64,000 nucleotides of DNA from Cryobacterium psychrophilum (GTDB taxonomy: Bacteria > Actinomycetota > Actinomycetes > Actinomycetales > Microbacteriaceae), in NCBI RefSeq assembly GCF_004365915.1, contig NZ_SODI01000001.1, positions 3,501,759 to 3,565,758 of the forward strand. Direction: 5' to 3'. Position numbers and translations under genes: made by a program. Every line of letters starts with the position of its first letter. Positions within the stretch are counted from its first letter, which is position 1. Under the pieces are notes generated by a model that worked only from the letters and a program-made list of their open reading frames with translations, searched no databases and was not told where the DNA came from. Of this stretch, positions 15,560-43,298 are shown in pieces.

Positions 15560-15583
15560 GTGGGGTGTGGAAAGGGTCGGCCC

Positions 15584-19160: not shown

Positions 19161-19313
19161 TTGACGGGCTTGGCAGTGCCTCGATTCGCGTCGATCTTTA
19201 CGAGCGAGTGGTCACCCCTGGTCGCTGGTTTTCTCGGAGATACGGTCGAGCTCGACTGCCGGTGGGTTAGGAGTCCGGCTGTTAGAGTTGGCCTGATCGC
19301 GGACAATCCGCCG

Positions 19314-20144
19314 ATGCCAGTGCGATTCGAGGAGTTCGTGGCAGGTCACACAACAGCCCCGGGCCAGTCGGTCACGAGTCGCGTCCTCAGTATCCTCGCG
19401 GCCTTCGAACACAGCGCATCCGCGTTGACACTCTCGCAGATCAGCACCGAGAGCGGACTGCCGCAGAGCACCGCTCACCGCCTCCTCGGTGAGCTTGAAA
19501 TCTGGGGAGCCGTACAACGGGACGCGCAGGGCCGGTACCAGATCGGCATTCGTCTGTGGGAGCTTGGCCAACACGGCGGTCGCAAACTGCGCGATCTTGT
19601 CCGCCCCTTTCTTCAGGATCTCTTCGGCCTGACCCAGGAGACCGTGCACCTTGCCATTCGTGACGGTGCCGAAGTGCTCTATATGGACCGCATCTATGGC
19701 AGCCGCCGGGTGCCCCAGGCCTCGCAGGTCGGCGGGCGTCTACCGTTGCACGCGACCGCCGCAGGCCGGGCCATTCTCGCCTTCGAAGACGAGTGGGTTC
19801 AGGAGGCAGTGCTGAGCGGGAAGCTCGCTCAGCGCACCGTGCACACCAAAACGGACCCCGACCAGCTACGCAGGGAACTCACCCGCATCCGTGACCAGGG
19901 GTTCTCGTTCGCGTCGGAGGAGGTGCGGCTCGGATCTTGCTCCCTCGCCGTGCCGGTTTTCGCCGCGGATGGCAGCATCTACGCCGGCCTCGGAATCGTA
20001 TTCCCGATTTCGCACATGCAACAGGTTGAACGTAATCTACCGATTCTGCGCGGCACGGCGGGCCTCATCCAGGCTCAAATCGCGCACCTCCCGACGACAG
20101 CACGGCCCGGCAGCGTGCGCCCTCAAAAAGGGTCGAACAGCTAA
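19314..20144 (+). CDS. IclR-family regulator, probable cre operon regulator
   Basis: 276 residues from the ATG at 19314. The frame is open further upstream but overlaps a pseudogene. Residues ~18-75 are the winged helix (TSRVLSILAAFEHSASALTL, ESGLPQSTAHRLLGEL). Residues ~85-265 are the IclR effector domain (ETVHLAIRDGAEVLYMDRIYG, RLPLHATAAGRAILAF, SFASEEVRLGSCSLAVPVF). It reads in the same direction as the cre operon and ends 93 bases before it, so it likely controls creJ onward. An operator-like motif lies at 20150-20164. The effector is presumably a cresol pathway compound; this is inference. Confidence 0.85.
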   Translation: MPVRFEEFVAGHTTAPGQSVTSRVLSILAAFEHSASALTLSQISTESGLPQSTAHRLLGELEIWGAVQRDAQGRYQIGIRLWELGQHGGRKLRDLVRPFLQDLFGLTQETVHLAIRDGAEVLYMDRIYGSRRVPQASQVGGRLPLHATAAGRAILAFEDEWVQEAVLSGKLAQRTVHTKTDPDQLRRELTRIRDQGFSFASEEVRLGSCSLAVPVFAADGSIYAGLGIVFPISHMQQVERNLPILRGTAGLIQAQIAHLPTTARPGSVRPQKGSNS

Positions 20145-20237: not shown

Positions 20238-21605
20238 GTGACCAGTAACACCCAAGCAATACGCACGGAATCAAACGCACCGCATGTCGCAACGTGTCCG
20301 GTGAACCACAGTGCCGCAACCGTGCCGGCCGAGGCCCGTCCCGCCGAGCGATACGGCTACGAGCCCTTCAACATGAATGACCCGTTCCCGTCATACGCCG
20401 CCCTGCGCGAGAATGCACCGGTCATGTACGACGAGTCCATCGGCTACTTCGTGGTGTCCCGGTATGACGACACCAAGGCCGTCTTCGACAACTGGAAGAT
20501 CTTCAGCAGCGAGAACGCCCAGATGCCCGTGCGGCCCCGCGGCCCAGAGGCGACACAGATCATGAACGACGGCGGTTTCACCGCTTACTCCGGGCTGAGC
20601 GCCCGCATTCCCCCGGAGCACACCCGCATGCGCGCCATCGTGCAGAAGGAATTCACGCCGCGACGCTACAAGTCACTCGAACCCACGATTCGCGAGAACA
20701 CCCAGCGGTTGCTGCAGCAGATGTTGGCCCACGCGGATGCCCGCGGCGATTTTCTGAAAGACGTCGCCGTCGACATTCCCACGATCACCATCCTCGGCCT
20801 GCTCGGCGTGGGACCGGAGATGGTGTCGACCTACAAGAAGTGGTCGGATTCCCGTGCCGCCATGACCTGGGGTGACCTGAGTGATGACGAGCAGGTCCCG
20901 CACGCGCACAACCTGGTCGACTACTGGACCGAGTGCCTGCGCCTGGTCGCCAACGCGCATGAGCAGCTGGCGGCCGGTACCAACGGCGACAACCTCGTCT
21001 TCGACCTCGTGCAGGCGCAGTCCACCGGCTCCGAGATCAGCGACCATGAGATCGCCTCGGTCTGTTACAGCCTGCTCTTCGCCGGTCACGAGACCACAAC
21101 CACCCTCATCTCAAACACCATTCGCGAGCTGCTCACGCACCCGGCCGAGTGGAAGAAACTTCAGGAAGACCCGAGCCTGATCCCCTCCGCGATCGACGAG
21201 ACGCTGCGCTTCTCGCCGAGCATCGTCGGTTGGCGCCGTAAGGCCCTCGAAGATACCGAGATCGGAGGCGTCGCGATTCCGAAGGGTTCCAACATTCTTC
21301 TGCTGATGGGCTCGGCGAACCGTGACCCCGGCACCTTTGAGGATCCCGAAACCTTCGACATCACCCGTATCAACGCCCGCAACCACCTCTCCTTCGGCTT
21401 TGGTATTCATTACTGCCTCGGCAACATGCTCGCCAAGATGCAAGACAAGATCGTGGTCGAGGAGACCCTCAAGGCTGCGCCCGACCTGCGCATCCTCCAC
21501 CCCGAAGCCATCATCTTCGGAGACAACCTGTCGTTTCGCGCCCCCACATCGGTGCCCGTCACATGGGGGCCTCTCGCGAACGCATCCGAAGGAGCAGTGA
21601 AATGA
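20238..21605 (+). CDS. creJ: cytochrome P450, CreJ-like (alkylphenyl-phosphate methyl hydroxylase)
   Basis: 455 residues from the GTG at 20238 with AAAGGAG just upstream. P450 features in order: I-helix oxygen-binding motif FAGHETTTTLI, K-helix EETLR-type sequence (IDETLRFSPSIVGWRR), and heme loop FGFGIHYCLG with the axial Cys393. There is no membrane anchor, so it is a soluble class I bacterial P450 needing ferredoxin and reductase, both encoded downstream. In the Corynebacterium cre pathway the P450 CreJ oxidises the methyl group of 4-methylphenyl phosphate. The whole gene set here matches that pathway, which is why I assign this name. The stop overlaps the next start (ATGA). Confidence 0.85.
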   Translation: MTSNTQAIRTESNAPHVATCPVNHSAATVPAEARPAERYGYEPFNMNDPFPSYAALRENAPVMYDESIGYFVVSRYDDTKAVFDNWKIFSSENAQMPVRPRGPEATQIMNDGGFTAYSGLSARIPPEHTRMRAIVQKEFTPRRYKSLEPTIRENTQRLLQQMLAHADARGDFLKDVAVDIPTITILGLLGVGPEMVSTYKKWSDSRAAMTWGDLSDDEQVPHAHNLVDYWTECLRLVANAHEQLAAGTNGDNLVFDLVQAQSTGSEISDHEIASVCYSLLFAGHETTTTLISNTIRELLTHPAEWKKLQEDPSLIPSAIDETLRFSPSIVGWRRKALEDTEIGGVAIPKGSNILLLMGSANRDPGTFEDPETFDITRINARNHLSFGFGIHYCLGNMLAKMQDKIVVEETLKAAPDLRILHPEAIIFGDNLSFRAPTSVPVTWGPLANASEGAVK

Positions 21606-22678
21606 CCCACGCCCCGTTCATTCAATTCTTTGACAGTGTGGATGCGCCGCTGCACGACCTGCTTGGCGGCAAGTGCGCCTCGCTCGTGGCGCTGACCCAG
21701 GCCGGCATGCCGGTCCCTCCCGGGTTCGCCATCACGACCGCCGCGTACGACGCCTTCATTGATGCGGCCGGCATTCGGGCTGATATTCACCAACTGCTCG
21801 ACGGCCTCGATGCCGACGACATCGCTGAGGTCGATCGTGTGTCGGCGCAGCTGCGCTTCGAGATTGAAAGCCGACCCGTGCCGGCCGAGCTTCACGCCCT
21901 CTTCGTCGACGCGTACCATGCGTTGCAGGCCCGTTTCCGTGAGCCGGTGCCGGTCGCTGTGCGGTCGTCCGCCACTGCCGAGGACCTCCCTGATGCCAGC
22001 TTCGCTGGCCAGCAGGACACCTACCTCTGGTTGACGGGCATCGACGACGTCGCCGCGCACATTCATCGCTGCTGGGCCTCGCTTTACACCTCGCGGGCCA
22101 TCACGTATCGCCTGAAGAACAACATTCCCAACGAGGGACTGTCGATGGCCGTCGCCGTACAAAAGATGGTCAACGCACGCGCTGCCGGTGTGGCCATCAC
22201 CATGGACCCGACCACCGGTGACCGTTCCAAGATCGTGATTGAGGCCGCCTATGGGCTCGGTGAACTCGTTGTTTCCGGACTCGTCACACCCGATAACATC
22301 ACCGTGGACAAGATCATGCTCATGGTTGTCAAGCGGGTTCTCGGCGACAAGCACGCCGAACTCGTACCCGATCCGAGTACCAAGGCTCTGGCCGAACTTG
22401 AGGTGTCGGCCGAGCGCCGAGCACAGCTCTCCATCAGCGAGACGGAGATCACGGCGATCGCGACGATCGCGAAGAAGGCCGAGAAGCACTTCAAGTGCCC
22501 GCAGGACATCGAGTGGGCCCTTGACCGCGATCTGCCCGACGGCGAAAACCTGCTGCTGCTTCAGTCCCGGCCCGAGACGGTGTTCTCGTCGAAGGCGCAG
22601 ACGCCGGTCACGCCGGCCGGCGGGTTCGGCATCGAGAGCATAACCCGTTCCCTCATGGTGCAGGCCGGCAAGGCTTGA
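21602..22678 (+). CDS. ATP-binding subunit of a PEP-synthase-like phenol kinase (CreHI pair)
   Basis: 358 residues from the ATG at 21602, overlapping the creJ stop. It is the isolated N-terminal pyruvate-phosphate-dikinase/PEP-synthase ATP-grasp domain: GGKCASLVALTQAGMPVPPGFAITT near residue 20, VAVRSSATAEDLPDASFAGQQDT near 120, VQKMVNARAAGVAITMDPTTGD near 195, and QDIEWALD near the C-terminus. Its job would be to phosphorylate the His of the partner subunit using ATP. In Corynebacterium, CreH and CreI together phosphorylate p-cresol on the hydroxyl. I cannot say which of the two letters belongs to this subunit, so I give no symbol. Confidence 0.82.
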   Translation: MTHAPFIQFFDSVDAPLHDLLGGKCASLVALTQAGMPVPPGFAITTAAYDAFIDAAGIRADIHQLLDGLDADDIAEVDRVSAQLRFEIESRPVPAELHALFVDAYHALQARFREPVPVAVRSSATAEDLPDASFAGQQDTYLWLTGIDDVAAHIHRCWASLYTSRAITYRLKNNIPNEGLSMAVAVQKMVNARAAGVAITMDPTTGDRSKIVIEAAYGLGELVVSGLVTPDNITVDKIMLMVVKRVLGDKHAELVPDPSTKALAELEVSAERRAQLSISETEITAIATIAKKAEKHFKCPQDIEWALDRDLPDGENLLLLQSRPETVFSSKAQTPVTPAGGFGIESITRSLMVQAGKA

Positions 22679-22760
22679 CCCCTGATTTTCCGAGCACCTA
22701 CACCAGCACCACCCGAACACGTCCGTTATCCCTCGCACTACCCTCGAGAACGGTTTTCTT

Positions 22761-24662
22761 ATGACAGAGAAGTCATTTCCCAGCCCCTACGACCAGGCTC
22801 CGGCTGCCGGCGCTGAAGGTTGGAAGAACTTGTACGCCTACAATCTGGTTTTCCAGGACAATCGCCGTGAGGTGGAAGAAGGCAAGTTCTGGTTTTGCGA
22901 CAGCCAGCACTGGCCGACCGTCGTCAAGCCTTTTGAGACCATCGGCCTTGAATTCTCCGTCTCCTGCCTCGGCCAGTACAACACCCGACACCTGCTGATT
23001 CCCCCGGCGAACGGCATCGAGTTCCGCCTTCACAATGGCTACCTGTTCATGTCGCCGGTCGGCGTTCCCGAAGCTGAAGTTGCGCCGCGCGTGCCCGAGT
23101 TCATGGCCCGTGCCGGTCACTACTTCCAGAACTGGGACACCCTGCTCGAGCAATGGCAGGGCAAGATCCGCGGCACGATTGATGAGCTGGGCGCGCTCTC
23201 GTTCGACGCGCTGCCCGACAAGGTTGACATCAACGACGTCACGAGCGGAAAAGGCACCGGGCCGAACAATGAACTGCTCGCCCAGTACGACCAGCTGATT
23301 GCGCTCACCTACCGGGCTTGGCAGTACCACTTCGAGTTCCTCAACCTCGGCTACGTGGCCTACCTCGACTTTTTCAGCTACTGCAAAGAGGTCTTCCCCG
23401 GCATCCCCGACCAGGCCGTCGCCAAGATGGTGCAGGGCGTTGACATGGAGCTGTTCCGGCCGGACGACGAGCTCAAGAAGCTCGCCAAGCTTGCCGTGGA
23501 ACTGGACCTGACCGGCCTCTTCGGTCAGACCCACAACCCCGAGGCCACGCTCGATGCCATCGCGAACGCCCCGCACGGCGCCGAGTGGATCGCCGCCTGG
23601 ACCGAAGCGAAAGACCCGTGGTTCAACTTCACTGTGGGCAACGGCTTCTACGCCCACGACAAGTACTGGATGGACCACCTCGAACTGCCCCTCGGCTACA
23701 TCAGCGATTACATCGGTCGCCTGCAGACCGGCCAGACCATCGATCGCCCGGTGGCCGAACTCGTCGCCGAGCGCGACCGCATCAGCGAGGAGTATTGTGA
23801 ACTTCTCAGCCCCGAGCAGCTCGCCGCTTTCGAGGGCAAGCTCGGCCTCGCCCGCCAGGTATATCCCTACGTGGAGAACCACAACTTCTACATTGAGCAC
23901 TGGACCATGGGTGTGTTCTGGCGCAAGGCACGCCAGCTCTCGGAAATGCTCCAGGCACAGGGCTTCTGGCCTGAGGCCGACGGCATGTTCTTCCTGCGCC
24001 GCGATGAGGTGCGTGAGGCACTGTTCGACTATGTCACCGGCTGGGCCGTTGGCGCTCCGGCGATCGGACCGGACTACTGGCCCGACGAGGTTGCGCGTCG
24101 CCGCGTGATCGTCGACGCCCTGCAGAGCGAGCGCCCGCAGCCCGCGCTGAACACTCCGCCCGCCGTCATCACCGAGCCCTTCACCCTCATGCTCTGGGGC
24201 ATCACGAGTGACCAGATCAAGAACTGGCTTGGCGACTCCGATGCGCCGGAAGGTGAGTTCCGCGGAATGGCGGCATCCAGCGGTGTGGCAGAGGGCCCGG
24301 CCCGGGTGATCAGCAGCTCCGACCAGCTCTCCGAGGTTCGGGAGGGCGACATTCTGGTGGCCCCCGTCACGGCGCCTTCATGGGGACCGATCTTCGGCAA
24401 GATTCGAGCCACCGTCACGGACATCGGCGGCATGATGAGCCACGCGGCCATCGTCTGCCGGGAATACGGCATGCCCGCCGTCACGGGAACCGGAACCGCG
24501 TCGTCGCAGATCGTCACCGGTCAGTGGTTGCGCGTCGATGGCAACAACGGAACCGTCACCGTCGTCGAAGGTCACGTGCACGACGTTACCCTGGCCAATG
24601 ACGCAGCCATTCAGCTGGAACAGGCGATCGATGGCACCGTTCTCGAAGGCAGCCATGCCTGA
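22761..24662 (+). CDS. phosphohistidine/substrate subunit of the PEP-synthase-like phenol kinase (CreHI pair)
   Basis: 633 residues. Residues 1-~490 are a large domain rich in aromatic residues (WTMGVFWRKARQLSEML), resembling the substrate-binding middle domain of phenylphosphate synthase and rifampicin phosphotransferase relatives. Residues ~510-620 are the PEP-utiliser swivelling domain (GMAASSGVAEGPARVI, GDILVAPVTAPSW, then GGMMSHAAIVCREYGMPAV), with phosphorylatable His561. Together with the ATP-grasp gene upstream it makes a complete dikinase-type machine split into two polypeptides. In the inferred cresol pathway it transfers phosphate to the phenolic oxygen. The C-terminus overlaps the SDR start. 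Confidence 0.82.
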   Translation: MTEKSFPSPYDQAPAAGAEGWKNLYAYNLVFQDNRREVEEGKFWFCDSQHWPTVVKPFETIGLEFSVSCLGQYNTRHLLIPPANGIEFRLHNGYLFMSPVGVPEAEVAPRVPEFMARAGHYFQNWDTLLEQWQGKIRGTIDELGALSFDALPDKVDINDVTSGKGTGPNNELLAQYDQLIALTYRAWQYHFEFLNLGYVAYLDFFSYCKEVFPGIPDQAVAKMVQGVDMELFRPDDELKKLAKLAVELDLTGLFGQTHNPEATLDAIANAPHGAEWIAAWTEAKDPWFNFTVGNGFYAHDKYWMDHLELPLGYISDYIGRLQTGQTIDRPVAELVAERDRISEEYCELLSPEQLAAFEGKLGLARQVYPYVENHNFYIEHWTMGVFWRKARQLSEMLQAQGFWPEADGMFFLRRDEVREALFDYVTGWAVGAPAIGPDYWPDEVARRRVIVDALQSERPQPALNTPPAVITEPFTLMLWGITSDQIKNWLGDSDAPEGEFRGMAASSGVAEGPARVISSSDQLSEVREGDILVAPVTAPSWGPIFGKIRATVTDIGGMMSHAAIVCREYGMPAVTGTGTASSQIVTGQWLRVDGNNGTVTVVEGHVHDVTLANDAAIQLEQAIDGTVLEGSHA

Positions 24663-25467
24663 ACCGCGCACGGCCTCGTCCACCTCCGCGTCCACCGCGA
24701 GAACGGTGCTGATCACCGGCGCCGCCGGCGGGCTGGGCCGTGCCTTCGCTCTGGGCTTCGCGGCCCAGGGCGACCGGGTGGTGGCCGCCGACACCAACCT
24801 CGAAGGAGCGCAGCAGACCGCTGCGCTCATTGAGGAGGCCGGCGGCACCGCCCTCGCCCTACATGCCAACGTCACATCGCTCGACTCGGTGACTCAGATG
24901 GCAGCGGATGCCGCGGCCTTCGACGCCGAGTTCACCGGCGGCACCGGCTCGACGAACACCGGACACATCGACGTGATCATCAACAACGCCGCGATCTACG
25001 CGACCATCACCCGTTCAGCGTTCGAGGAGATCGACGTGGACGAGTGGGACCTCGTGATGGCCGTGAACCTCAAGGGCCCGTGGCTCGTGACGCGGGCCTG
25101 CTCGCCCTACCTGCAGAGCGGTTCGCACGTGGTCAATCTGTCGTCGGCCACCGTGATGAGCGGCTCGGCTCACTGGGCTCACTATGTGGCCAGTAAGGGC
25201 GGCGTCATTGCGCTCACTCGAGTGCTCGCCAAGGAACTCGGTGACCGAAACGTGACCGTGAACGCGATTGCACCCGGCTTCACCCTCACCGAGGCCAGCT
25301 ACGGACTCATCGAAGGCGCCGCCGACTATGGCGTCGACCGCGGCAGCATCAAACGGGCCAGCGAACCCGACGACATCGTGGGGGCGGCACTGTTCCTCGC
25401 CGGCCCCGGCTCGAGCTACATCACCGGTCAGACCCTCGTGGTCGACGGTGGTCGCCAGTTCCTGTGA
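24655..25467 (+). CDS. creG: short-chain dehydrogenase, CreG-like (4-hydroxybenzyl alcohol dehydrogenase)
   Basis: 270 residues from the ATG at 24655, overlapping the kinase stop; an in-frame upstream frame only shadows the kinase gene. Classical SDR: cofactor motif TGAAGGLG near residue 23, NNAA-type motif (IINNAAIYA), catalytic Ser in NLSSATVMSG, YVASKGG with Tyr and Lys, and the C-terminal GQTLVVDGG. It probably oxidises the 4-hydroxybenzyl alcohol released by the phosphohydrolase to the aldehyde. The role rests on operon context and the cre pathway precedent; other alcohol substrates are possible. Confidence 0.78.
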   Translation: MPEPRTASSTSASTARTVLITGAAGGLGRAFALGFAAQGDRVVAADTNLEGAQQTAALIEEAGGTALALHANVTSLDSVTQMAADAAAFDAEFTGGTGSTNTGHIDVIINNAAIYATITRSAFEEIDVDEWDLVMAVNLKGPWLVTRACSPYLQSGSHVVNLSSATVMSGSAHWAHYVASKGGVIALTRVLAKELGDRNVTVNAIAPGFTLTEASYGLIEGAADYGVDRGSIKRASEPDDIVGAALFLAGPGSSYITGQTLVVDGGRQFL

Positions 25468-25521
25468 TTGCCGTAATCGTGCAGTTCCACACACAGCGAA
25501 ACTTGAGAAAGGAAACCTGAC

Positions 25522-25836
25522 ATGCCTTCCGTAACCTACACAGCCTTTGACGGCAGCGAAACGGCCGTCGAGGGGTTCGCGGGCGACTCCGTCATGGAGA
25601 CCGCGGTGCGCAATGGCGTGGCGGGCATCGTCGCTGAATGCGGCGGCAGTCTCTCCTGCGCCACCTGTCACGTTTTCGTGTGCGCTGACACCGTGTTTCC
25701 CGCCATGGAAGACCTCGAAGATGACATGCTCGACGGCACCGCCGTTGACCGGGAAGACAATTCCCGACTCTCCTGCCAGCTCAAGCTCGTTGGCGATGCC
25801 GACGTGCGGGTCCTGACCCCCGAAACGCAGGTGTGA
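25522..25836 (+). CDS. creF: [2Fe-2S] ferredoxin of the P450 system, CreF-like
   Basis: A 104-residue putidaredoxin/adrenodoxin-type ferredoxin with GAAAGG upstream. Cluster ligands are Cys40, Cys46 and Cys49 (AECGGSLSCATCH) and Cys85 (RLSCQL). The C-terminal acidic MEDLEDDML stretch resembles the reductase/P450 contact region of this family. It should carry electrons one at a time from the adjacent reductase to CreJ. Its stop overlaps a possible GTG start of the reductase. Confidence 0.88.
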   Translation: MPSVTYTAFDGSETAVEGFAGDSVMETAVRNGVAGIVAECGGSLSCATCHVFVCADTVFPAMEDLEDDMLDGTAVDREDNSRLSCQLKLVGDADVRVLTPETQV

Positions 25837-25838
25837 CC

Positions 25839-27179
25839 ATGACCCGTCCCGCGTCGACCAGTGCAACATCGACCAGTACAACGTCGTCAAATGACACAGG
25901 GGTGCCGCGCCGTGGCACCCTCATCATTGGCAACTGCCAGGCCGGCGTGCAACTCGCGTCGAGCCTGCGTGACCTCGGTGACACCGAGCCGATTGTGCTG
26001 GTCGGCGAGGAGTCGCACGCCCCGTACCAGCGGCCGCCGCTATCGAAGGCGTTTCTCAAGGGCGAGGTCACGGCCGATTCCCTCACCTTTCGCACGCACG
26101 AGTTCTATGCCGATCACCAGATCGAACTTGTCACCCGTGAACGTATCGTCGAGATCGAGCGTGACGCCCACGGTGGCGTCGCCGTCGCCGAATCCGGTCG
26201 TCGTTTCGGCTTCGCTCGGCTCGCTCTCACCACGGGTGCGGTGCCGCGCCAGATACCGTTCGAGGGGAGTGAGCTCGAAGGGGTCAGCTACCTGCGCACG
26301 GCAACGGATGCCGCCCTTCTCGAACAGGGACTGCTCACCGCCACCGACGTGGTCGTCGTGGGCGGCGGTTTCATCGGACTCGAAGTCGCCGCCGGTGCCC
26401 GCGCGGCCGGCAAGACCGTCACGGTGTTGGAGGCGGCCCCCCGTCTCGTGGGCCGGGCCGTGTCGGAGGAGACCAGCGCGTTCTACCTGGCCGCCCACAC
26501 CCGACGTGGCACTCGCGTTGTGCTGAACGCCCAGGTGGCGCGCTTCACCGGCGAGCACGACCGCGTCACCGGAGTGGAATTGGCTGATGGCAGCATTATC
26601 CCGGCCGACGTTGTGCTCATCGGAGTTGGCGTCATCCCACGCACCGAACTGGCCGCCCAGCTGGGGCTCGACCTCGACAACGGTATTACCGTGAACTCCG
26701 GCGCCCTCACGAGTGATGGCCTCACGGTCGCCGCTGGTGACTGCGCCAACCTGCCCAACCCCTCCATCACCGCCGGCGGCATCGAGCGGTTGCGACTCGA
26801 AAGCGTGCAGAACGCGGTCGAGCAGGCCAAGATCGCCGCGGCCACGCTGCTCGGCCTGCCCGCCGAGTACTCCACGGTGCCGTGGTTCTGGAGCGACCAG
26901 GCCGACCTCAAGCTGCAGATCGCCGGACTCTCGGGTGGCCACGACCGCATTGTGCTGCGCGGCGACCCCGACAGCGAGAAGTTCTCGGTGCTGTATTACC
27001 GGGGCGGCCAGATCATTGCCGCCGACTGCGTGAACCGTCCGCTCGACTTCATCGCCGTGAGGAGTGCCCTGCACAAGGGGCAGCAGATCGATCCCGACGC
27101 CGCAGTAGATGAAACGATGCCGCTCAAAAAGCTCGTGACGGATGCCCCGACCCCCGTGCTCGCAGCGCCGGCGGCGTGA
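25839..27179 (+). CDS. creE: NAD(P)H-dependent ferredoxin reductase, CreE-like
   Basis: 446 residues from the ATG at 25839; a GTG at 25833 would add two. It has two Rossmann domains: an FAD segment near residue 25 with the variant GNCQAGVQLA in place of GxGxxG, PYQRPPLSKAFLKG near 60, an NAD(P)H motif VVVGGGFIGLEVAAGARAAG near 170, and a second FAD motif TVAAGDCANLP near 290. The C-terminal ferredoxin-reductase domain covers ~330-420. The protein begins with a Ser/Thr-rich tail of ~20 residues. It is the electron-input partner of the ferredoxin and P450 in the same operon. Confidence 0.87.
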   Translation: MTRPASTSATSTSTTSSNDTGVPRRGTLIIGNCQAGVQLASSLRDLGDTEPIVLVGEESHAPYQRPPLSKAFLKGEVTADSLTFRTHEFYADHQIELVTRERIVEIERDAHGGVAVAESGRRFGFARLALTTGAVPRQIPFEGSELEGVSYLRTATDAALLEQGLLTATDVVVVGGGFIGLEVAAGARAAGKTVTVLEAAPRLVGRAVSEETSAFYLAAHTRRGTRVVLNAQVARFTGEHDRVTGVELADGSIIPADVVLIGVGVIPRTELAAQLGLDLDNGITVNSGALTSDGLTVAAGDCANLPNPSITAGGIERLRLESVQNAVEQAKIAAATLLGLPAEYSTVPWFWSDQADLKLQIAGLSGGHDRIVLRGDPDSEKFSVLYYRGGQIIAADCVNRPLDFIAVRSALHKGQQIDPDAAVDETMPLKKLVTDAPTPVLAAPAA

Positions 27180-27269
27180 CAGACGCACCGTGGCATCCGC
27201 TCAGCCACGCCATCACACAGCCCCCACTCATTCAGCTCACACAGCCCGACGTCATTTAGAGAGACGATC

Positions 27270-27917
27270 ATGACCCTGTTGCAGACCGACCAACTCATTG
27301 AGACTTCCCCGATCGACGTGCACGAGGCATCCGCTACCGACCTCGACCCGCTGTGGGCCGCCGTCTCCACCGAGATGCGCACCCGCGCCAACAACATTCA
27401 CGTACCGATCAGCTTCGCCTATGCCGAGCGCCTGTGCCTGGCATACCCGGAGGCCGACGCCCTCGTTGTGCGGGTGACGATTCTGCTGCACGACACCGGA
27501 TGGGCGCGAGTCGACGAGACCAAGATCATCACTGAGGGCTTCGGCGGGGACTGGCGCAAGGCCGATATTCGCTATCAACACGAGGCATATGGCTGCGACA
27601 TCGCCCGCGAGGTTCTGCCGGGCCTCGGCTACGACGAGGCATTCATCACCCGGGTGACCGACATCATTGACGGGCACGACACTCGCGCCGAGTCGCATTC
27701 GATCGAGGATTCCCTCGTGCGCGATGCAGACCGGCTCTGGCGCTTCACCCCGGCGGGCATTGCCCTGGCCTCCGGCTGGTTCACCATGACGCCCAGCGTC
27801 TATTGCAATCGCTTGCGACAGGAGATTCTGCCCGAACTGATCACCTCGGCCGCCCTCGCGATGGCCACCGCCGAGATGGATCGCTCCGAGGCCCTGCTCA
27901 AGATTGACGTGCTGTGA
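27270..27917 (+). CDS. creD: HD-domain phosphohydrolase, CreD-like
   Basis: 215 residues. HD-superfamily metal ligands are visible: an early His in NNIHVPISFAYAERL, the His74-Asp75 doublet in LLHDTG, His in RYQHEAYG, further His in IIDGHDTR, and a late Asp in SLVRDADRLWRF. In the cre pathway the HD protein CreD removes the phosphate from the oxidised aryl phosphate, freeing 4-hydroxybenzyl alcohol. A stand-alone HD hydrolase in the middle of a P450 operon is hard to explain otherwise. The stop overlaps the aldehyde dehydrogenase GTG. Confidence 0.8.
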   Translation: MTLLQTDQLIETSPIDVHEASATDLDPLWAAVSTEMRTRANNIHVPISFAYAERLCLAYPEADALVVRVTILLHDTGWARVDETKIITEGFGGDWRKADIRYQHEAYGCDIAREVLPGLGYDEAFITRVTDIIDGHDTRAESHSIEDSLVRDADRLWRFTPAGIALASGWFTMTPSVYCNRLRQEILPELITSAALAMATAEMDRSEALLKIDVL

Positions 27918-29389
27918 GCGCCCTGATCACGGCGACCCTGCCGTATACCCACACCGACGACGTCTTCATCGACGGCGCCTGGCACGCGGCGACGGGCACC
28001 GGCCGCACCCTGGTCACCAACCCGGCGACCGAGGAGGTCTGGGGGAGCGTGCCACAGGCCTCCGTCGCCGACCTCGACCGGGCCGTGGCGGCCGCGAACC
28101 GTGCCTTCACGGGCAGTGGATGGCGCGACCTCGCGCCCTCCGTTCGCGCCGGCTACCTGCTCCGTCTGGCCGATGAGATTGAGAAGCGCGCCGAGCCGCT
28201 CTCGCACACCAATACCTTCGAGAACGGCTCGCCGGTTGCGGAGACGTCGAAAGCTGCCGCCAATGCCGCGTCGATTTTTCGGTACTTCGCCTCACTCGCG
28301 CCGACACTGGAGAAGGCCGATATTCGGCCGTTCCCCGATGGGTCCGGCGAAACCGTGGTGCGGCAGGACCCGATCGGCGTCTGCGCTCTCATCGCCCCGT
28401 GGAACTTTCCGATCAACCTCGTCGTGGCCAAGCTCGCCCCGGCGCTCATGGCGGGCTGCACCGTCGTGATCAAACCTGCATCGCCGACCCCACTGTCGAT
28501 CCGCCTCATCGTGGATGCTGCCGTGGCGGCCGGAATCCCGGCCGGCGTCGTGAACGTGGTGACCGGTCCCGGATCGTTCGGCGATGCCCTCGTCAAACAC
28601 CCCGGGGTAGCCAAGGTCGCTTTCACCGGCTCGACCCCGGTCGGACGTTCGATCGCCGCGGCCTGCGGAACGCTGCTGCGACCGGTCACGCTTGAGCTCG
28701 GAGGCAAATCGTCAGCGCTCGTTCTGCCCGACGCCGACCTCGACGCCCTCTCACGTGTGCTCATTCGCACCTGCATGCGCAACACCGGTCAGACCTGTTA
28801 CATCTCCACCCGAATTCTGGCACCGGCCGAGCGCTACGACGAACTCGTCGACATGGTCACGGCGACGATTGCCGAAGCCAGGCAGGGTGATCCGATGGAC
28901 CCGCGCACCGTGTTCGGCCCCGCAGCGACCAAGGCCCAGGAGCAGACCGTGCGCGGCTACATTCGGACGGGCCTGGCCGAGGGCGCCAGAGCGACGACCG
29001 GGGGCGATGTGGACGCCGGATTCGACCGGGGGTTCTTCGTCAAGCCCACCGTCTTTGCCGATGTGACTCCCGGAATGCGCATTGCCCAGGAGGAGATCTT
29101 CGGGCCGGTACTGTCGATCCTGCGCTATTCGGGGCTCGATGAAGCGGTGTCGATCGCGAACAACACCACATTCGGACTCGGCGGCACGATTTTCTCGGAC
29201 GATGAGGACGCGGCGCTGGCCCTGGCGCCCCGGCTGGGTACAGGATCGCTCGGGCTGAACTTTTTCGCCTCCAACCATGCGGCGCCGTTTGCGGGCCGCC
29301 ACGATTCGGGTCTCGGCGCGGAGTTCGGACCGGAGGGTCTGCGAGCCTATCTCAGCCCGCAGTCGGTGCATCGCCGCATCCGCTCCTGA
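27914..29389 (+). CDS. creC: aldehyde dehydrogenase, CreC-like (4-hydroxybenzaldehyde dehydrogenase)
   Basis: 491 residues from a GTG coupled to creD. NAD-dependent aldehyde dehydrogenase family: substrate/cofactor motif APWNFPINLVVAKLAPAL, FTGSTPVGRSI, general base Glu in TLELGGKSS, nucleophile Cys295 in NTGQTCYIS, and EEIFGPVLSIL. It is expected to turn 4-hydroxybenzaldehyde into 4-hydroxybenzoate, the substrate of PobA encoded at 36485. Last gene of the cre operon; an IS110 fragment lies just beyond. Confidence 0.85.
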   Translation: MSALITATLPYTHTDDVFIDGAWHAATGTGRTLVTNPATEEVWGSVPQASVADLDRAVAAANRAFTGSGWRDLAPSVRAGYLLRLADEIEKRAEPLSHTNTFENGSPVAETSKAAANAASIFRYFASLAPTLEKADIRPFPDGSGETVVRQDPIGVCALIAPWNFPINLVVAKLAPALMAGCTVVIKPASPTPLSIRLIVDAAVAAGIPAGVVNVVTGPGSFGDALVKHPGVAKVAFTGSTPVGRSIAAACGTLLRPVTLELGGKSSALVLPDADLDALSRVLIRTCMRNTGQTCYISTRILAPAERYDELVDMVTATIAEARQGDPMDPRTVFGPAATKAQEQTVRGYIRTGLAEGARATTGGDVDAGFDRGFFVKPTVFADVTPGMRIAQEEIFGPVLSILRYSGLDEAVSIANNTTFGLGGTIFSDDEDAALALAPRLGTGSLGLNFFASNHAAPFAGRHDSGLGAEFGPEGLRAYLSPQSVHRRIRS

Positions 29390-30079: not shown

Positions 30080-30169
30080 CCCAAAAAACGAGCGGACACT
30101 CATATCGTCTATCAGGGCATATCGAAGGCTCACGGTGTTTTCTCCTCGGTCCTGTAAGTGACTACCAGC

Positions 30170-30211
30170 ATAGATAGTCTGATCCTGCGCAAACTATCTA
30201 TAGAAATAGTT
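30170..30211. promoter_or_regulatory. nested palindromes upstream of vanA (possible operator)
   Basis: ATAGATAGT (30170-30178) and ACTATCTAT (30193-30201) form a 9-base inverted repeat. AACTAT (30192-30197) and ATAGTT (30206-30211) form a second with 8-base spacing. They end about 18 bases before the vanA ATG, where a repressor such as a VanR protein would act. No vanR gene is visible in the window. Confidence 0.45.
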
Positions 30212-30229
30212 AGCTTGACGGAGGATTCA

Positions 30230-34339: not shown

Positions 34340-34391
34340 ACTGGCAAGCCACTTCCTCGTGGTCGGTGCGGTTACGACAGGGTGTTGTGAT

Positions 34392-35354: not shown

Positions 35355-35421
35355 TTCACTCCATTGTGTTTTCGGTGCGGATAGTGCTGCTGTGGTTGAG
35401 CCGTGAGCGCTTCGAACCGGA

Positions 35422-36484: not shown

Positions 36485-37666
36485 GTGCCCCACGAAACCA
36501 CCCGCGTCGCCATTATTGGTGCCGGTCCCGCCGGTCTCCTCCTGAGCTGGGCCCTGCGTGACGCCGGCATCGACTCAATCGTCGTCGAAAACCGCTCGCA
36601 GGAGTACGTGCTGGGTCGTATCCGCGCCGGCGTTCTCGAACAGGGCTCGGTTGAGACCCTGACCCGCCTCGGGCTGGGTGATCGCCTTGCATCCGAGGGG
36701 CTGCAGCACGACGGAATCTTTTTGCAGTACGGGGGCGAGCGCCACAACGTGAACTTCAACGAGTTGATCGGCCGCACGGTCACCGTGTACGGGCAACAGG
36801 AAGTCGTGAAAGACCTCGTTTCCGCGCATGCAGAGGCCGGCTCGACCATCTACTACGAAGCGTCCGCCGTCGCCGTCGACGGCCTCACCAGCAAGAACCC
36901 GAGCGTGACCTTCGTGCATGGCGGCGAAAAACACACCATCGACGCCGACTTCGTCGTGGGTGCCGACGGCTTTCACGGCATCTGCCGCTCCTCGATCCCT
37001 ACTGAAGAGATCACCTTGTTCGACCGCAGTTACCCCTACGCCTGGCTGGGAATCCTCGCCGACGTGGCACCGTCCTCTGACGAGCTTGTCTATGCCTTGC
37101 ACCAAGACGGCTTCGCGATGCTCTCGATGCGCTCGCCCGTGGTCTCCCGCCTCTACCTGCAGGTCGATCCGGCCGACGACGTTGAGAACTGGTCGGATTC
37201 CCGTATCTGGGAGGCGCTGCAGACTCGGCTCGGCACGCCGGGCTGGACCCTGAACGAAGGCCCGATCACCGACAAATCGATCACCCCGATGCGCAGCTTC
37301 GTCGCCTCTCGCCTCGCCTACGGCAACCTGTTTCTGGTCGGCGACGCCGGACACATCGTGCCGCCCACCGGCGCTAAAGGCCTCAACTCAGCCATCTCCG
37401 ACGTCACCCAGCTTGCAGAGGCACTGACCGCGTTCTACGCGAACGATGAGACGTTGCTCGGTCGCTACAGCGAGACCGCGCTGGCCCGGCAGTGGCGGGT
37501 GCAGCAATTCTCCCGCTGGATGACCGAGATGCTGCACACGAGCTCCGGCGACCTGCAGTCCGGCGCCTTCGACTACCGCAGTCAGCTCGGCCAGCTCGAC
37601 TACGTCACCCACTCGCCGCTCGCCCAGCGCATGCTGGCCGAGCAGTACACCGGCCTCCTGCTCTAG
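36485..37666 (+). CDS. pobA: 4-hydroxybenzoate 3-monooxygenase
   Basis: 393 residues from a GTG with AGGAGAA upstream. Group A flavoprotein hydroxylase: FAD motif GAGPAGLLLSWALRDAG at residues ~11-27, RIRAGVLEQGSVETL (substrate/NADPH region), the DG motif VVGADGFHGICR and the second FAD motif NLFLVGDAGHIVPPTGAKGLNSAI. It converts 4-hydroxybenzoate to protocatechuate with NAD(P)H and O2, linking the cre pathway output to the pca genes that follow. The length matches PobA. Confidence 0.93.
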   Translation: MPHETTRVAIIGAGPAGLLLSWALRDAGIDSIVVENRSQEYVLGRIRAGVLEQGSVETLTRLGLGDRLASEGLQHDGIFLQYGGERHNVNFNELIGRTVTVYGQQEVVKDLVSAHAEAGSTIYYEASAVAVDGLTSKNPSVTFVHGGEKHTIDADFVVGADGFHGICRSSIPTEEITLFDRSYPYAWLGILADVAPSSDELVYALHQDGFAMLSMRSPVVSRLYLQVDPADDVENWSDSRIWEALQTRLGTPGWTLNEGPITDKSITPMRSFVASRLAYGNLFLVGDAGHIVPPTGAKGLNSAISDVTQLAEALTAFYANDETLLGRYSETALARQWRVQQFSRWMTEMLHTSSGDLQSGAFDYRSQLGQLDYVTHSPLAQRMLAEQYTGLLL

Positions 37667-37688: not shown

Positions 37689-38492
37689 ATGAGCCAGACA
37701 CCCAGCCTTCGCCCCGGCACCGGCGCGGCGAGCCAGAACGAGATCACCGCTGAGATCGAAGAGATCGCGGCGGATGCCGCGGCGCGCGTCCGCGCCGGCG
37801 GCTCACCCGAGCTGCAACCTCGCCGCGACTACGCCCCGTACCGCAGTTCTCTGCTGCGCCATCCCACCCACGAGCTCGTGCGCGTCGACCCGGAAGAAGT
37901 CGAACGGGTCTCGCCCGCCTTCGGCCACACCGACGTCAATGTTCTCGAGAGCGATCTCACCATCCAGCACGCTGGCGAGCCGATCGGCGAACGCATGACC
38001 GTGAGCGGTCGCGTACTCGATGGCGAGGGCCGCCCGGTGCGGCACCAGTTGATCGAACTGTGGCAGGCCAACGCCGGTGGTCGCTACGTGCACAAACGCG
38101 ACCAGCACCCGGCACCGCTCGACCCCAACTTCACGGGAGTCGGCCGCGTCATCACCGGTGACAACGGTGAGTACTCCTTCACCACGATCAAGCCAGGGCC
38201 CTATCCGTGGAAGAACCACGTGAATGCGTGGCGACCCGCGCACATCCACTTTTCGTTGTTCGGTACCGCGTTCACCCAGCGGCTGATCACCCAGATGTAC
38301 TTTCCCGGCGACCCGCTGTTCGCGCTCGACCCGATTTACCAGTCCATTGCCGATGCGGATGCCCGCGCCCGGCTTGTCGGGCAGTACGACCACAGTCTGA
38401 GCGTGCCCGAGTTCTCGCTCGGCTATCGCTGGGATATCGTGCTCACGGGCCCCAAGTCAACCTGGATGGAAAGCGAAGATGCTGATGAGTGA
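37689..38492 (+). CDS. pcaH: protocatechuate 3,4-dioxygenase beta subunit
   Basis: 267 residues. The intradiol dioxygenase fold supplies the iron site: Tyr133 (GGRYVHKRD), Tyr172 (KPGPYPWKN), His185 and His187 (RPAHIHFS). An N-terminal extension of ~40 residues precedes the usual RRDYAPYRSSLLRHP start. It cleaves the protocatechuate ring to 3-carboxy-cis,cis-muconate together with PcaG. Its 3' end overlaps pcaG. Confidence 0.94.
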   Translation: MSQTPSLRPGTGAASQNEITAEIEEIAADAAARVRAGGSPELQPRRDYAPYRSSLLRHPTHELVRVDPEEVERVSPAFGHTDVNVLESDLTIQHAGEPIGERMTVSGRVLDGEGRPVRHQLIELWQANAGGRYVHKRDQHPAPLDPNFTGVGRVITGDNGEYSFTTIKPGPYPWKNHVNAWRPAHIHFSLFGTAFTQRLITQMYFPGDPLFALDPIYQSIADADARARLVGQYDHSLSVPEFSLGYRWDIVLTGPKSTWMESEDADE

Positions 38493-39063
38493 CCACACCG
38501 CCCCGGCCCTGCAGACACCGTCGCAGACGGTTGGTCCGTTTTACGGCTTCGCTCTGCCCTATGCGGGCGGGCCGGAACTGGTTCCCGGGCACCATCCCCG
38601 CGCCATCCGTTTTCACGGCACCGTCACCGACGGTGCCGGGGAGCCAATTCTCGACGCTTTGCTGGAGGTCTGGCAGGCCGACGAGAGTGGAGCGCTTAGC
38701 CGTGAGCTCGGCAGCCTCGATCGTGACGGTTTCACCTTTACCGGCTTCGGCCGTTGCGCCACCACGATCGCCGGCCACTACACCTTCACGACCCTCAAGC
38801 CCGGGGCCGCCGGCACAGCGGCGCCGTACATTCTGGTGACCGTGTTCGCCCGCGGAGTCACTCACCACCTGTTCACTCGCGCCTACTTCGCGGAGGATTC
38901 CGAGCTGCACGCGACCGACGCCGTGCTTAGCGCGGTACCCGCCGACCGCCGGAACACGCTCATCGCCGTCTCTGAGGGGTTCGTCGGGGGAGCCGAGTCC
39001 TACCGCTTCGACATTCGCGTGCAGGGCGAGAACGAGACCGTCTTCTTGGACTTCGATGCCTGA
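38485..39063 (+). CDS. pcaG: protocatechuate 3,4-dioxygenase alpha subunit
   Basis: 192 residues from the ATG at 38485; an ATG at 38479 adds two. Intradiol fold: TPSQTVGPFYGFALPY near the start, LLEVWQADESGAL, GHYTFTTLKPG and a late FARGVTHHLFTRAYF. As in other alpha subunits the full set of iron-ligand Tyr residues is not kept, so it structures the active site rather than binding iron. The start overlaps the pcaH stop and the end overlaps pcaB. Confidence 0.93.
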   Translation: MSDHTAPALQTPSQTVGPFYGFALPYAGGPELVPGHHPRAIRFHGTVTDGAGEPILDALLEVWQADESGALSRELGSLDRDGFTFTGFGRCATTIAGHYTFTTLKPGAAGTAAPYILVTVFARGVTHHLFTRAYFAEDSELHATDAVLSAVPADRRNTLIAVSEGFVGGAESYRFDIRVQGENETVFLDFDA

Positions 39064-40522
39064 CCGGCCTGAAGCGGACGGGCACACCTTTGATGCGGGG
39101 CTGCTCAACCCGCTCAGCCACGGCACCCGCGAATCCGTTCTCACGAGCGACCAGGCATGGCTGCAGGCGATGGTCGATGCCGAGCTCGCCCTCACGCGTG
39201 CGCTCGTCGATGCGGGCCTCGCCCCGGAGTGGATGAGCGCGGTCTGTGACCGCCTCGCCGACGCGAGCCAGTTCGACCTCGGCGCCATCGCGCTCGAGGC
39301 GCGGGGCGGCGGCAACCCGGTAATTCCGTTCGTGAAACACCTCGGCCGCGCGGCCGAGAAGGTGCGCGCCGGGGCGTCCGACCATATTCACGTCGGTGCG
39401 ACCAGCCAGGATATTCTCGACACGGCAGCGATGATCGTGGCGCACCGGGTGACCTGCGAACTCATCCGCCAGCTCGACTCCCTCGGCGCGACCCTCGCCG
39501 ACCTCGCCGACGAACACCGCGGCACGGTGATGAGCGGCCGCACCCTCGGCCAGCAGGCGTCGCCGACGAGCTTCGGGTTCGTGGCGGCCGGCTGGCTCGA
39601 CGCCGTGCTGCTGATCGTCACCCGACTCGACGTCATTCGGGACACCCTGCCGGTGCAACTCGGAGGAGCGGTCGGCACCCTCGCCGTTCTCACCGAAATC
39701 GCCCGGGCCAGGCGCAGCGACGCGGTCGCCGCCGACGTGCTCGATACGGTCGTCACCCGCTTCGCCCACCACGTCGGCCTCGTCGTGCCGCGCCTGAGCT
39801 GGCACACCAACCGCGTCGTCATCTCCGAGCTTGCCTCCGTGCTCGCCGCCGCGACCGGAGTCGCGGGCACCTTCGCCCTCGACGTATCGGTGCTCTCCCG
39901 CACCGAAATCGCCGAGGTCAGCGAACGCCTCGCTCCCGGCCAAGGTGGATCCTCAGCGATGCCGCACAAACGCAACCCGGTATCGGCCGTGCTGATCACC
40001 GCAGCGGCACTGCAGACGCCGGGTCTTGCATCCACCCTCTATGGCAGCATGCTGGCCGAAGACCAGCGTCCCAGCGGGGCATGGCATGCCGAATGGCAGT
40101 CGCTGCGGGTGCTCGAACGACTCACGATTTCGGCCGTTACCGGCGCCGCGTCGCTCGCCGCCCGCCTCGTGGTCGACTCGGATCGGATGCTCGCCAACCT
40201 CGACCTCACCGCCGGACTCGTGTTCAGCGAGCGGGTGACCACGATCCTGGCCGAGACCGTCGGCAAGACCACCGCGTTCGCACTGGTGGAACGCGCCTCG
40301 CATGAGGCGTTCGTGACCAATCGGCCGCTTCAGGTCGTGCTCGCGAGCATTCTCATCGCCGAGGGCTGTTCCGACGCCCTGCGCGCCCAGATCTGGGCGG
40401 CATTCAACTATGAGGACCAGCCTGGCCAGTCGGCAGTCGGCATCGACCGCGTCGTGCACAGCTTTCGGCAACGAGCCCGTGCCGGCACACTCTCCGCCAC
40501 TGCGTACGCGAACACCCTGTGA
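39056..40522 (+). CDS. pcaB: 3-carboxy-cis,cis-muconate cycloisomerase
   Basis: 488 residues of the fumarase/aspartase superfamily. Conserved regions: VGATSQDILDTA, SGRTLGQQASPTSFG and the signature loop GQGGSSAMPHKRNPV. It converts 3-carboxymuconate to 4-carboxymuconolactone, the third step of the protocatechuate branch. It is slightly longer than average through its C-terminus. The start overlaps pcaG, indicating one mRNA. Confidence 0.93.
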   Translation: MPDRPEADGHTFDAGLLNPLSHGTRESVLTSDQAWLQAMVDAELALTRALVDAGLAPEWMSAVCDRLADASQFDLGAIALEARGGGNPVIPFVKHLGRAAEKVRAGASDHIHVGATSQDILDTAAMIVAHRVTCELIRQLDSLGATLADLADEHRGTVMSGRTLGQQASPTSFGFVAAGWLDAVLLIVTRLDVIRDTLPVQLGGAVGTLAVLTEIARARRSDAVAADVLDTVVTRFAHHVGLVVPRLSWHTNRVVISELASVLAAATGVAGTFALDVSVLSRTEIAEVSERLAPGQGGSSAMPHKRNPVSAVLITAAALQTPGLASTLYGSMLAEDQRPSGAWHAEWQSLRVLERLTISAVTGAASLAARLVVDSDRMLANLDLTAGLVFSERVTTILAETVGKTTAFALVERASHEAFVTNRPLQVVLASILIAEGCSDALRAQIWAAFNYEDQPGQSAVGIDRVVHSFRQRARAGTLSATAYANTL

Positions 40523-40529
40523 GGACCTC

Positions 40530-41801
40530 ATGAGCCAGCCCGTCATCCTCTGCACCATCGAGCCAGCCACGAACGGCGACGCCAACGCGCCGCTCATCGT
40601 GCTGGGACCCTCCCTCGGGACCACGATTGACGTGTGGGCCGGGGTAGTACCCGCGCTCGCAGCGAACCACCGGGTGCTCCGCTTCAACCTTCCCGGGCAC
40701 GGCTTCAGCCCGCGCGCCGCCGAGTCCTTCACGCTCGAGGAGATCACCGACGCCGTCATCGAACTGGTCGACTCCATTCAGGTCGACACCTTTCACTACG
40801 CCGGAACCTCGTTCGGCGGTGCCGTCGGCCTCGCCCTCGCCGTGGCCCACCCCGGGCGACTGGAGAGCCTGGCAGTGCTCTGCTCCGGCGCAAAAATCGG
40901 CACCGCTCAGGCTTGGACCGACCGCGCGGCCGCAGTGCGCGCGAGCGGCACCCCCTCGCTCATTGCCGGCAGCGCCGCCCGCTGGTTCGCACCAGACTTT
41001 CTTGGCCGCGACCCGAAAGCCGGCTCGCACGCGCTCGACCAGCTGCTGGACATCGACGACGAATCCTACGCGCTCGCCTGCGAGGCGCTCGCGGTCTTCG
41101 ACCAAACGGATGCCGTCAGCGAAATCCGCACGCCCGTTTTGTGCGTCTCGGGCGAGTTCGACACCGTGACGCCAACCGCGCAGATGCAGGATCTAGCCGC
41201 GGCCATCCCCGGCGCGCGGGCCACCGTGGTGGCGGGCGCGGCGCATCAGCCCTCGCTCGAGCGCCCGGCTGAGGTCAGCACGTTGCTGGGGGAGTGGTTG
41301 GCGGAGGTCGCTACTCGCGGCATGGCTGAGCCGCTGTGGGCGGGCCGTACCGCGGCATCCGCATATGACGACGGCATGCTCGTGCGCCGCGCGGTACTCG
41401 GCGACAAGCATGTTGATGCGGCCACCGCCGCGATCACCCCAGAGACCGCGGTGTTTCAGGATTTCATCACCCGCTACGCGTGGGGCGAGATCTGGACCCG
41501 GCCGGGCCTTGACCGGCGCACCCGCAGCTTTCTGACCATTGCGGCGCTCGTCACAGGCGGGCACGAGGGCGAACTGGCCATGCACGTGCGGGCTGCCCTG
41601 ACCAACGGGCTGACCCGCGCCGAGATCAGCGAGGCGATTCTGCACACCGCGATCTACGCGGGCGTGCCGGCCGCCAACACCGCGTTCGCCGTGGCCCGCG
41701 CGACCTTCGCCGGGCTCGACGCGGCGGCTGCTGCCGACGTTGATGCTACCGACGACACCTCCGACGATTCATCCGCCGACACCGCCATTCGGCCCAGCTA
41801 A
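40530..41801 (+). CDS. pcaL: fused enol-lactone hydrolase / 4-carboxymuconolactone decarboxylase
   Basis: 423 residues from the ATG at 40530; a longer open frame to 40410 only shadows pcaB. Residues 1-~260 are an alpha/beta hydrolase (PcaD): LGPSLGTTIDVWAGVVPAL, nucleophile Ser94 in GTSFGG, Asp in VSGEFDTVTP, His in AGAAHQPSLE. Residues ~275-400 are the decarboxylase (PcaC): RRAVLGDKHVDAATA, FITRYAWGEIWTRPGLDRR, HTAIYAGVPAANTAF. The tail is acidic and Ser/Thr-rich. Such PcaD-PcaC fusions, called PcaL, are usual in actinobacteria. Confidence 0.93.
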   Translation: MSQPVILCTIEPATNGDANAPLIVLGPSLGTTIDVWAGVVPALAANHRVLRFNLPGHGFSPRAAESFTLEEITDAVIELVDSIQVDTFHYAGTSFGGAVGLALAVAHPGRLESLAVLCSGAKIGTAQAWTDRAAAVRASGTPSLIAGSAARWFAPDFLGRDPKAGSHALDQLLDIDDESYALACEALAVFDQTDAVSEIRTPVLCVSGEFDTVTPTAQMQDLAAAIPGARATVVAGAAHQPSLERPAEVSTLLGEWLAEVATRGMAEPLWAGRTAASAYDDGMLVRRAVLGDKHVDAATAAITPETAVFQDFITRYAWGEIWTRPGLDRRTRSFLTIAALVTGGHEGELAMHVRAALTNGLTRAEISEAILHTAIYAGVPAANTAFAVARATFAGLDAAAAADVDATDDTSDDSSADTAIRPS

Positions 41802-41814
41802 AGGATCAAGCACC

Positions 41815-42618
41815 ATGGACAAGACCTACCCCTCCGCCGCGGCCGCCGTTGCCGACATTCCCGACGGCGCCTCGCTTGCCGTGGGCGGCTTCGGCCTGGT
41901 CGGCGTTCCGATCGTGCTCATTCGCGCGCTGCTCGCACTCGGTAGCACCGACCTGCACGTCGCCTCGAACAACTGCGGCGTCGACGGCTGGGGCCTCGGC
42001 GAGCTGCTGCGCGAGGGCCGCATCAGCCGGGTGATCGCTTCGTACATCGGCGAGAACAAGGACTTCGCACGCCGCTACCTGGGCGGCGAGCTCGAGGTCG
42101 AGCTGACCCCGCAGGGCACCCTCGCCGAACGTTTGCGTGCCGGAGGAACCGGTATTCCAGCGTTTTTCACAGCGAGCGGTGTCGGCACGATGGTTGCCGA
42201 GGGTGGGTTGCCCTGGCGATATGGGCCGAACGGTGAGGTGACGGTGTCATCGCCACCCAAGCAGACACGGTTGTTCTCCTCGCTCGGCAGCGAGAAGGAG
42301 TACGTGCTTGAAGAAGCGATCGTCACCGACTATGCCCTGGTGCGCGCGGCCAAGGGTGACTGGCACGGCAACCTTGTGTTTGAGAAGTCGGCCCGCAACT
42401 TCAACCCGGTTGCCGGCATGGCTGGCCGCATCACCATCGCCGAGGTGGACGAACTGGTGGAGCCGGGGCAGATCGATCCCGATGAGGTGCACCTCGCTGG
42501 TATTTATGTGAATCGCATAGTGCAGTTGGGGGCAGCGGATGCCGCCGACCTGCCTATCGAGAAGATGACGACGCGGCCGCGTTCGGCGGCATCCGCTAGC
42601 GAAACCGGAGCGAACTAA
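41815..42618 (+). CDS. pcaI: 3-oxoadipate CoA-transferase subunit A
   Basis: 267 residues from the ATG at 41815 with AAAGGA upstream. Family I CoA-transferase alpha subunit: [19 protein letters not shown] near residue 20, [38 protein letters not shown] and [21 protein letters not shown]. With PcaJ it moves CoA from succinyl-CoA to beta-ketoadipate. It could also be annotated as a generic 3-oxoacid transferase, but the context fixes the role. Confidence 0.91.
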
Positions 42619-43298
42619 TGGCACTCACCCGCAACGAGATGGCGGCCCGCGCCGCTCAGGAGCTCGCCCCCGATTCGTATGTCAATCTGGGAATAGGCCT
42701 GCCTACGCTCATCCCCAACTTTTTACCGGTGGGAGTGCACGTCGTGTTGCACTCCGAGAATGGCGTGCTCGGTGTCGGGCCCTACCCGTGGGAGGGTGAG
42801 GAAGATCCCAAGCTCATCAATGCGGGTAAGGAGACCGTCACCGTGAATCCGGGGGCGGCGTACTTCGACTCGGCGCAAAGCTTCGGCATGATTCGGGGCG
42901 GGCTCATTGATGTGGCCGTGCTCGGAGCGATGCAGGTTTCGGTCGCCGGCGACATCGCGAACTGGGCTGTGCCCGGCAAGATGATCAAGGGCATGGGCGG
43001 AGCGATGGACCTCGTGCACGGCGCCGACACCGTGATCGTGGTCATGGAGCACGTGACAAAAACCGGCGACTTCAAGATCAAGACAGTCTGCGACCTGCCG
43101 CTGACCGGTAAAAGCGTCGTCACCCGGATCATCACCGACCTCGCCGTCATCGATGTCACCGTAGAGGGTCTCGTGTTGCGCGAGCTGGCTCCGGGCGTCA
43201 CCGTCGGGGAGGTTCAGGGCGCGACCGAAGCTGTTCTGCTGGTACCGGAACCCCCGACAACCATTCGAACCCTGATCCGTGACGGAGACGCCGCATGA
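42618..43298 (+). CDS. pcaJ: 3-oxoadipate CoA-transferase subunit B
   Basis: 226 residues whose ATG overlaps the pcaI stop. The catalytic Glu motif is in [14 protein letters not shown], preceded by [17 protein letters not shown]. Later [25 protein letters not shown] and [12 protein letters not shown] are typical of the beta subunit. It forms the heterodimer with PcaI and its stop overlaps pcaF (ATGA). Confidence 0.92.

Follow-up and report, generated by a model that had tools for sequence, protein, structure and literature searches.

In a 64,000-nucleotide stretch of the Cryobacterium psychrophilum genome (contig NZ_SODI01000001.1, positions 3,501,759 to 3,565,758; hereafter the window), positions 20238-29389 hold a complete cre-type operon, the gene set for p-cresol oxidation behind a phosphate mask; Du et al. 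2017 is said to be the founding paper on this system. Eight intact open frames on one strand encode a cytochrome P450, the two halves of a split dikinase, a short-chain dehydrogenase/reductase (SDR), a ferredoxin, a ferredoxin reductase, an HD phosphohydrolase and an aldehyde dehydrogenase (ALDH). All of these families had been named in the original prediction, which was made from the letters alone, and Pfam comparison confirmed them. The same prediction described the genes as coupled and overlapping, which holds for four of the seven junctions (-4, -8, -4 and -4 bases) but not for the other three, where gaps of 82, 54 and 90 bases separate the frames. An IclR-family regulator ends at 20144, 93 bases ahead of the P450 start, and lies outside the stretch originally singled out.

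The P450 carries the motifs FGFGIHYCLG and AGHET, the SDR carries YVASK, the ferredoxin CGGSLSCATC and the ALDH ELGGK and GQTC, while HD pairs occur at residues 74-75 and 136-137 of the phosphohydrolase. These motifs, read off the window proteins, are of the kind expected for such enzymes. The pattern GG.R, sought in the creI-like half, gave no match. In the creE-like reductase, the first nucleotide-binding stretch reads GNCQAG; the usual form of this motif is GxGxxG. The HD protein matched no NCBIfam family, and its best match among the sequences of solved structures was no better than E 0.1. A search of its own genome for a second HD gene of the creD kind returned only the window's own gene, and the named nearest relatives of the protein are from Cryobacterium. 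A role as a defence enzyme was considered and rejected, as 0 PADLOC families matched.

Ratios of nonsynonymous to synonymous substitution (dN/dS), obtained by a simple counting method at dS 0.5-1.1, were 0.08-0.26 against one Cryobacterium locus (L010) and 0.12-0.35 against another (L005) for the eight genes and the regulator. The ratios, 0.08-0.35 overall, point to purifying selection; with the frames intact as well, a decayed operon was rejected.

Comparison with the Corynebacterium glutamicum system

As reference we used locus L100 of genome G845, inferred to be C. glutamicum. All eight window products matched its Cre proteins, in order and at 55.6-73.0% identity (Table 1), with the genes on a single strand in both. 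The window's order J-I-H-G-F-E-D-C recurs in the reference and in four relatives from the inferred Corynebacterium genus (L101-L104), 5/5 in all, and the HD gene stands between E and C in the window as it does in the reference. An IclR gene lies beside cre in all four of these relatives, and the window regulator is 43-48% identical to theirs. Of the features that mark a cre-type system, these are present: split CreH and CreI, a CreJ-type (CYP288) P450, dedicated CreF and CreE, CreD, CreG/CreC and the gene order. In C. glutamicum, creC to creJ correspond to cg0637-cg0645, with the roles assigned here, according to the available part of one report (PMC7764795). C. glutamicum-derived CreH, CreI and CreJ, together with redox partners and CreD, oxidize alkylphenols, as stated in the accessible portion of another (PMC9549646).

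Table 1. Features of the operon, its regulator and the downstream pobA/pca-like cluster. Identities are from local alignments with the products of locus L100.
Feature	Position	Strand	Evidence
IclR-family regulator	19311..20144	+	Pfam HTH_IclR and IclR_C; start codon uncertain, open frame from 19026
creJ-like cytochrome P450	20238..21605	+	Pfam P450; CreJ 270/398 (67.8%)
creI-like ATP-binding half of aryl kinase (PPDK_N)	21602..22678	+	PF01326 4.7e-109; CreI 214/344 (62.2%)
creH-like half, phospho-histidine mobile domain	22761..24662	+	PF00391; NF006150, 1062 bits (cut-off 650); TDIGGMMSHAA; CreH 396/603 (65.7%)
creG-like SDR (predicted 4-hydroxybenzyl alcohol dehydrogenase)	24655..25467	+	PF13561; CreG 178/244 (73.0%)
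creF-like 2Fe-2S ferredoxin	25522..25836	+	PF00111; CreF 63/104 (60.6%)
creE-like FAD (flavin adenine dinucleotide) ferredoxin reductase, with Reductase_C	25833..27179	+	PF07992 and PF14759; CreE 228/410 (55.6%)
creD-like HD phosphohydrolase	27270..27917	+	Pfam HD; CreD 120/202 (59.4%)
creC-like ALDH (predicted 4-hydroxybenzaldehyde dehydrogenase)	27914..29389	+	PF00171 4e-148; CreC 310/479 (64.7%)
pobA-like 4-hydroxybenzoate 3-monooxygenase	36485..37666	+	NF006091 534.5 bits (cut-off 351); TIGR02360 458.4 bits, under cut-off 538.7
pcaH and pcaG, protocatechuate 3,4-dioxygenase beta and alpha	37689..39063	+	TIGR02422 and TIGR02423, both above cut-off
pcaB-like, pcaDC, pcaI-like, pcaJ-like and thiolase genes	39056..44512	+	pcaDC NF051488 above cut-off; CoA-transferase subunits above subfamily cut-offs

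Structural comparison places the P450 in the same way: its nearest solved structure, and the nearest by fold, is CreJ, which is far closer than any other solved P450. For the SDR, the best solved-structure match was 8cxa (169.7 bits), no closer a guide than CreG, and the ALDH had no solved-structure match at 1e-130. The kinase shares its ATP-binding and mobile phospho-histidine domains with the dikinases phosphoenolpyruvate (PEP) synthase and rifampin phosphotransferase, but it is made of two separate polypeptides. The two chains scored 339.3 and 98.8 bits against TIGR01418 (PEP synthase; cut-off 739.75) and 269.3 and 103.9 bits against NF041857 (rifampin phosphotransferase; cut-off 999). A further likeness, in mode of action, is to the phenylphosphate synthase of anaerobic phenol degraders, a split dikinase that phosphorylates phenol. 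There the phosphate serves carboxylation, whereas the window's system would use it to shield the phenol while oxidation proceeds.

Distribution and variants of cre loci

A single scan of genome contigs, with the HD protein as query, yielded 45 loci, whose gene content was taken from tblastn best hits with frames unchecked. The full set of eight, ordered as in the window, occurs in 36 of them; eight are cut by a contig end and one, from a metagenome-assembled genome of the Rhodobacteraceae (L049), is reduced to the P450, I, H, HD and SDR genes. For L006, several tblastn matches span just 46-73% of the query. Of the 36 complete loci, 35 also show an IclR gene; the other (L024) starts just before the P450. 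Among 57 genomes from the genus of the window, 20 have a CreJ-type P450 (E 1e-120 or better), as do 4 of 394 from its class, the window's own genome counted each time; for the inferred Corynebacterium genus the figure is 13 of 242. Two Rhodococcus plasmids, NZ_CP129900 (R. ruber) and NZ_CP021355 (R. oxybenzonivorans), both carry IclR and the eight genes, arranged as in the window. Unlike the window, both plasmids have toluene-4-monooxygenase genes next to cre. In the available text of a paper on alkylphenol catabolism in Rhodococcus, no word starting with 'phosph' occurs (PMC6710988), and a literature search found no paper joining toluene 4-monooxygenase, Rhodococcus, p-cresol and phosphorylation.

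Sets of a P450, a ferredoxin and a reductase are common, and the window could be imagined to hold an unrelated P450 operon, for example one that tailors natural products and happens to include a PEP-synthase-like enzyme. Such a coincidence is exceedingly improbable, and we rejected it on the synteny, with the order kept across Microbacteriaceae, the Rhodococcus plasmids and the inferred Corynebacterium genus, and on the gap between CreJ and the next solved P450. The original reading as a cre-type, phosphate-masking p-cresol operon is supported as far as sequence tells. Counted by the P450, 20 of the 57 genus genomes have this phosphate protecting-group gene set, and the Rhodococcus plasmids have it too; biocatalysis would thereby gain a large natural supply of CreJ, CreHI and CreD homologues.

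Several loci depart from the common arrangement. L030, L032 and L037 (about 6.7-7.6 kb), the three such loci opened, each carry an additional HD gene between creH and creG, and a similar one stands just before IclR on the R. ruber plasmid (L050) and in L089. In Cryobacterium aureum (L020:3211-5637), creJ and creI form one open frame of 809 residues, with no stop between the P450 and the kinase half. L088 has a cre-like cluster of P450, SDR, ferredoxin, reductase, ALDH and HD genes, with a kinase pair nearby on the opposite strand.

Proposed pathway and substrate

It is highly probable that the window encodes a functional cre-type operon that acts on p-cresol and probably also on other p-alkylphenols, with the reactions, their order and the substrate modelled on the C. 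glutamicum system. The dikinase formed by I and H would transfer phosphate from ATP, via a histidine, onto the phenol. J, served by F and E in a class I P450 system, would then hydroxylate the aryl phosphate at its methyl group, and the HD enzyme D would take the phosphate off. G followed by C would convert the alcohol through the aldehyde to 4-hydroxybenzoate, which the pobA/pca-like genes 7 kb downstream would carry into central metabolism. The system is already known; judged by its genes, the operon is a further member, in another host and with a likely downstream route nearby.

Between the operon and the pobA/pca-like cluster lie an IS110-type transposase fragment (29485-29967), a vanillate-demethylase-like (vanAB-like) remnant (30158-31847) and ABC transporter genes with an NMT1/THI5-like binding protein (31916-35456). 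In the remnant, a Rieske oxygenase gene without part of its C-terminal domain is followed by a reductase piece. The transporter possibly takes up aromatic compounds. Within the cluster itself, the pcaB-like lyase clears no listed cut-off and the thiolase scores under the pcaF equivalog cut-off; the names pcaB and pcaF are taken partly from position. Among 54 loci scanned, six have a pobA-like match at 41-81% identity (L012, L015, L029, L048, L089 and L103); two others (L037 and L038) show a weak, partial pcaDC match only, and the rest of the loci lacking pobA show none. In L103 the pobA-like gene (41%) comes directly after creC, and in L089 pcaHG- and pobA-like (43%) genes stand just ahead of the HD-IclR-cre run. 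The linkage of pobA/pca-like genes to cre, in the window and in some other loci, fits 4-hydroxybenzoate as the product.

This linkage also bears on whether the operon might serve detoxification or co-metabolism, running in a host that does not grow on the product. In C. glutamicum, indole triggers higher cre expression, according to the available part of the report (PMC7764795), which would suit such a role. With a pobA/pca-like set in the same window, and pobA-like genes directly beside cre in both L089 and L103, we nevertheless consider it very unlikely.

The proposed cre pathway, the reading we prefer, has several points against it. The pobA-, pcaB- and pcaF-like proteins fall short of strict equivalog cut-offs. 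Forty-eight of the 54 loci, among them the inferred C. glutamicum stretch, gave no pobA-like match within flanks of about 10 kb or less. Genome G845 is masked upstream of creJ, and the regulator comparison therefore covers L101-L104 only. Searches of the window's own genome for a diiron monooxygenase of the toluene/phenol type, made without a positive control, were empty. Lastly, a different p- or m-alkylphenol may be the substrate; the C. glutamicum system accepts several of them, as the accessible portion of the published account states (PMC9549646).

That last point can be taken further: the same chemistry may have another p-substituted phenol as its main substrate, such as 4-ethylphenol or a methyl-guaiacol, with p-cresol no more than tolerated. 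The title of one CreJ structure entry names a complex with (4-ethylphenyl) dihydrogen phosphate, and the adjoining vanAB-like remnant may hint at a methoxy-aromatic past. On the other side, CreG and CreC followed by pobA fit a one-carbon side chain that ends in 4-hydroxybenzoate, and the toluene-4-monooxygenase encoded beside cre on the Rhodococcus plasmids is expected to yield p-cresol. A different main substrate is compatible with a cre-type pathway for p-cresol and related phenols, and we regard it as unlikely.

A sister kinase clade and further features of the window

A search for the CreH family in 396 genomes of the phylum matched 23 at 1e-100, of which 14 were over the cut-off. Fifteen regions were examined, 13 from 12 of these 23 genomes and two from the class-level scan for CreJ-type P450s. 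By tblastn, eight regions (L076-L080, L082, L083 and L090) hold a run of extradiol, extradiol, histidine phosphatase, PPDK_N, PEP-mobile and Rieske genes, the last cut by a contig end in L090; Pfam agrees for the 10 proteins scanned (L076, L080, L082 and L083). The HD and P450 genes of cre were absent from these eight regions by the same search. L081 and L084-L087 have neither the cre set nor the Rieske-operon set, and L088 and L089 are cre-like. The Rieske oxygenase is of the LigXa type, and the sources among its 120 relatives listed include Acidimicrobiia and Actinomycetota.

A CreH tree of 37 rows comprises 20 cre rows, 8 Rieske-operon rows and 9 others, and a supported branch sets off each of these three sets. 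The window's H half belongs to the cre group (support 100/100), and the cre and Rieske-operon rows group together (100/98). Branches are long for L086-L088, and the L088 kinase pair falls outside the cre kinase group.

These arrangements suggest a second, putative phosphate-masking pathway in the conserved six-gene Rieske operon. Here an aryl phosphate would be the substrate of the Rieske oxygenase, its phosphate would be removed by the histidine phosphatase, and extradiol cleavage would then open the ring. More broadly, the window's split dikinase may belong to a wider aryl kinase family, with phosphate masking a general aerobic strategy beyond one p-cresol pathway, a proposal that we make tentatively and with some doubt. 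If true, the sister clade beside Rieske oxygenases would be a directly testable second use of phosphate masking. A limited literature search aimed at the Rieske operon brought up a single paper, on benzene degradation, which does not show the operon to be unpublished.

Elsewhere in the window, 0 RNA families and 0 transfer RNAs were found. A 790-residue open frame at 49810-52182 had no Pfam or PADLOC match, and Mu-type transposase and AAA ATPase genes lie near it. Upstream of the operon, positions 15560-17950 encode an FdhF/YdeP-type molybdopterin oxidoreductase. Farther upstream, two tyrosine recombinase trios (6429-9808 and 10048-13564), which resemble recombinase-in-trio elements, face opposite ways, and inverted repeats of 92 nt (98%) and 181 nt (99%) frame them.

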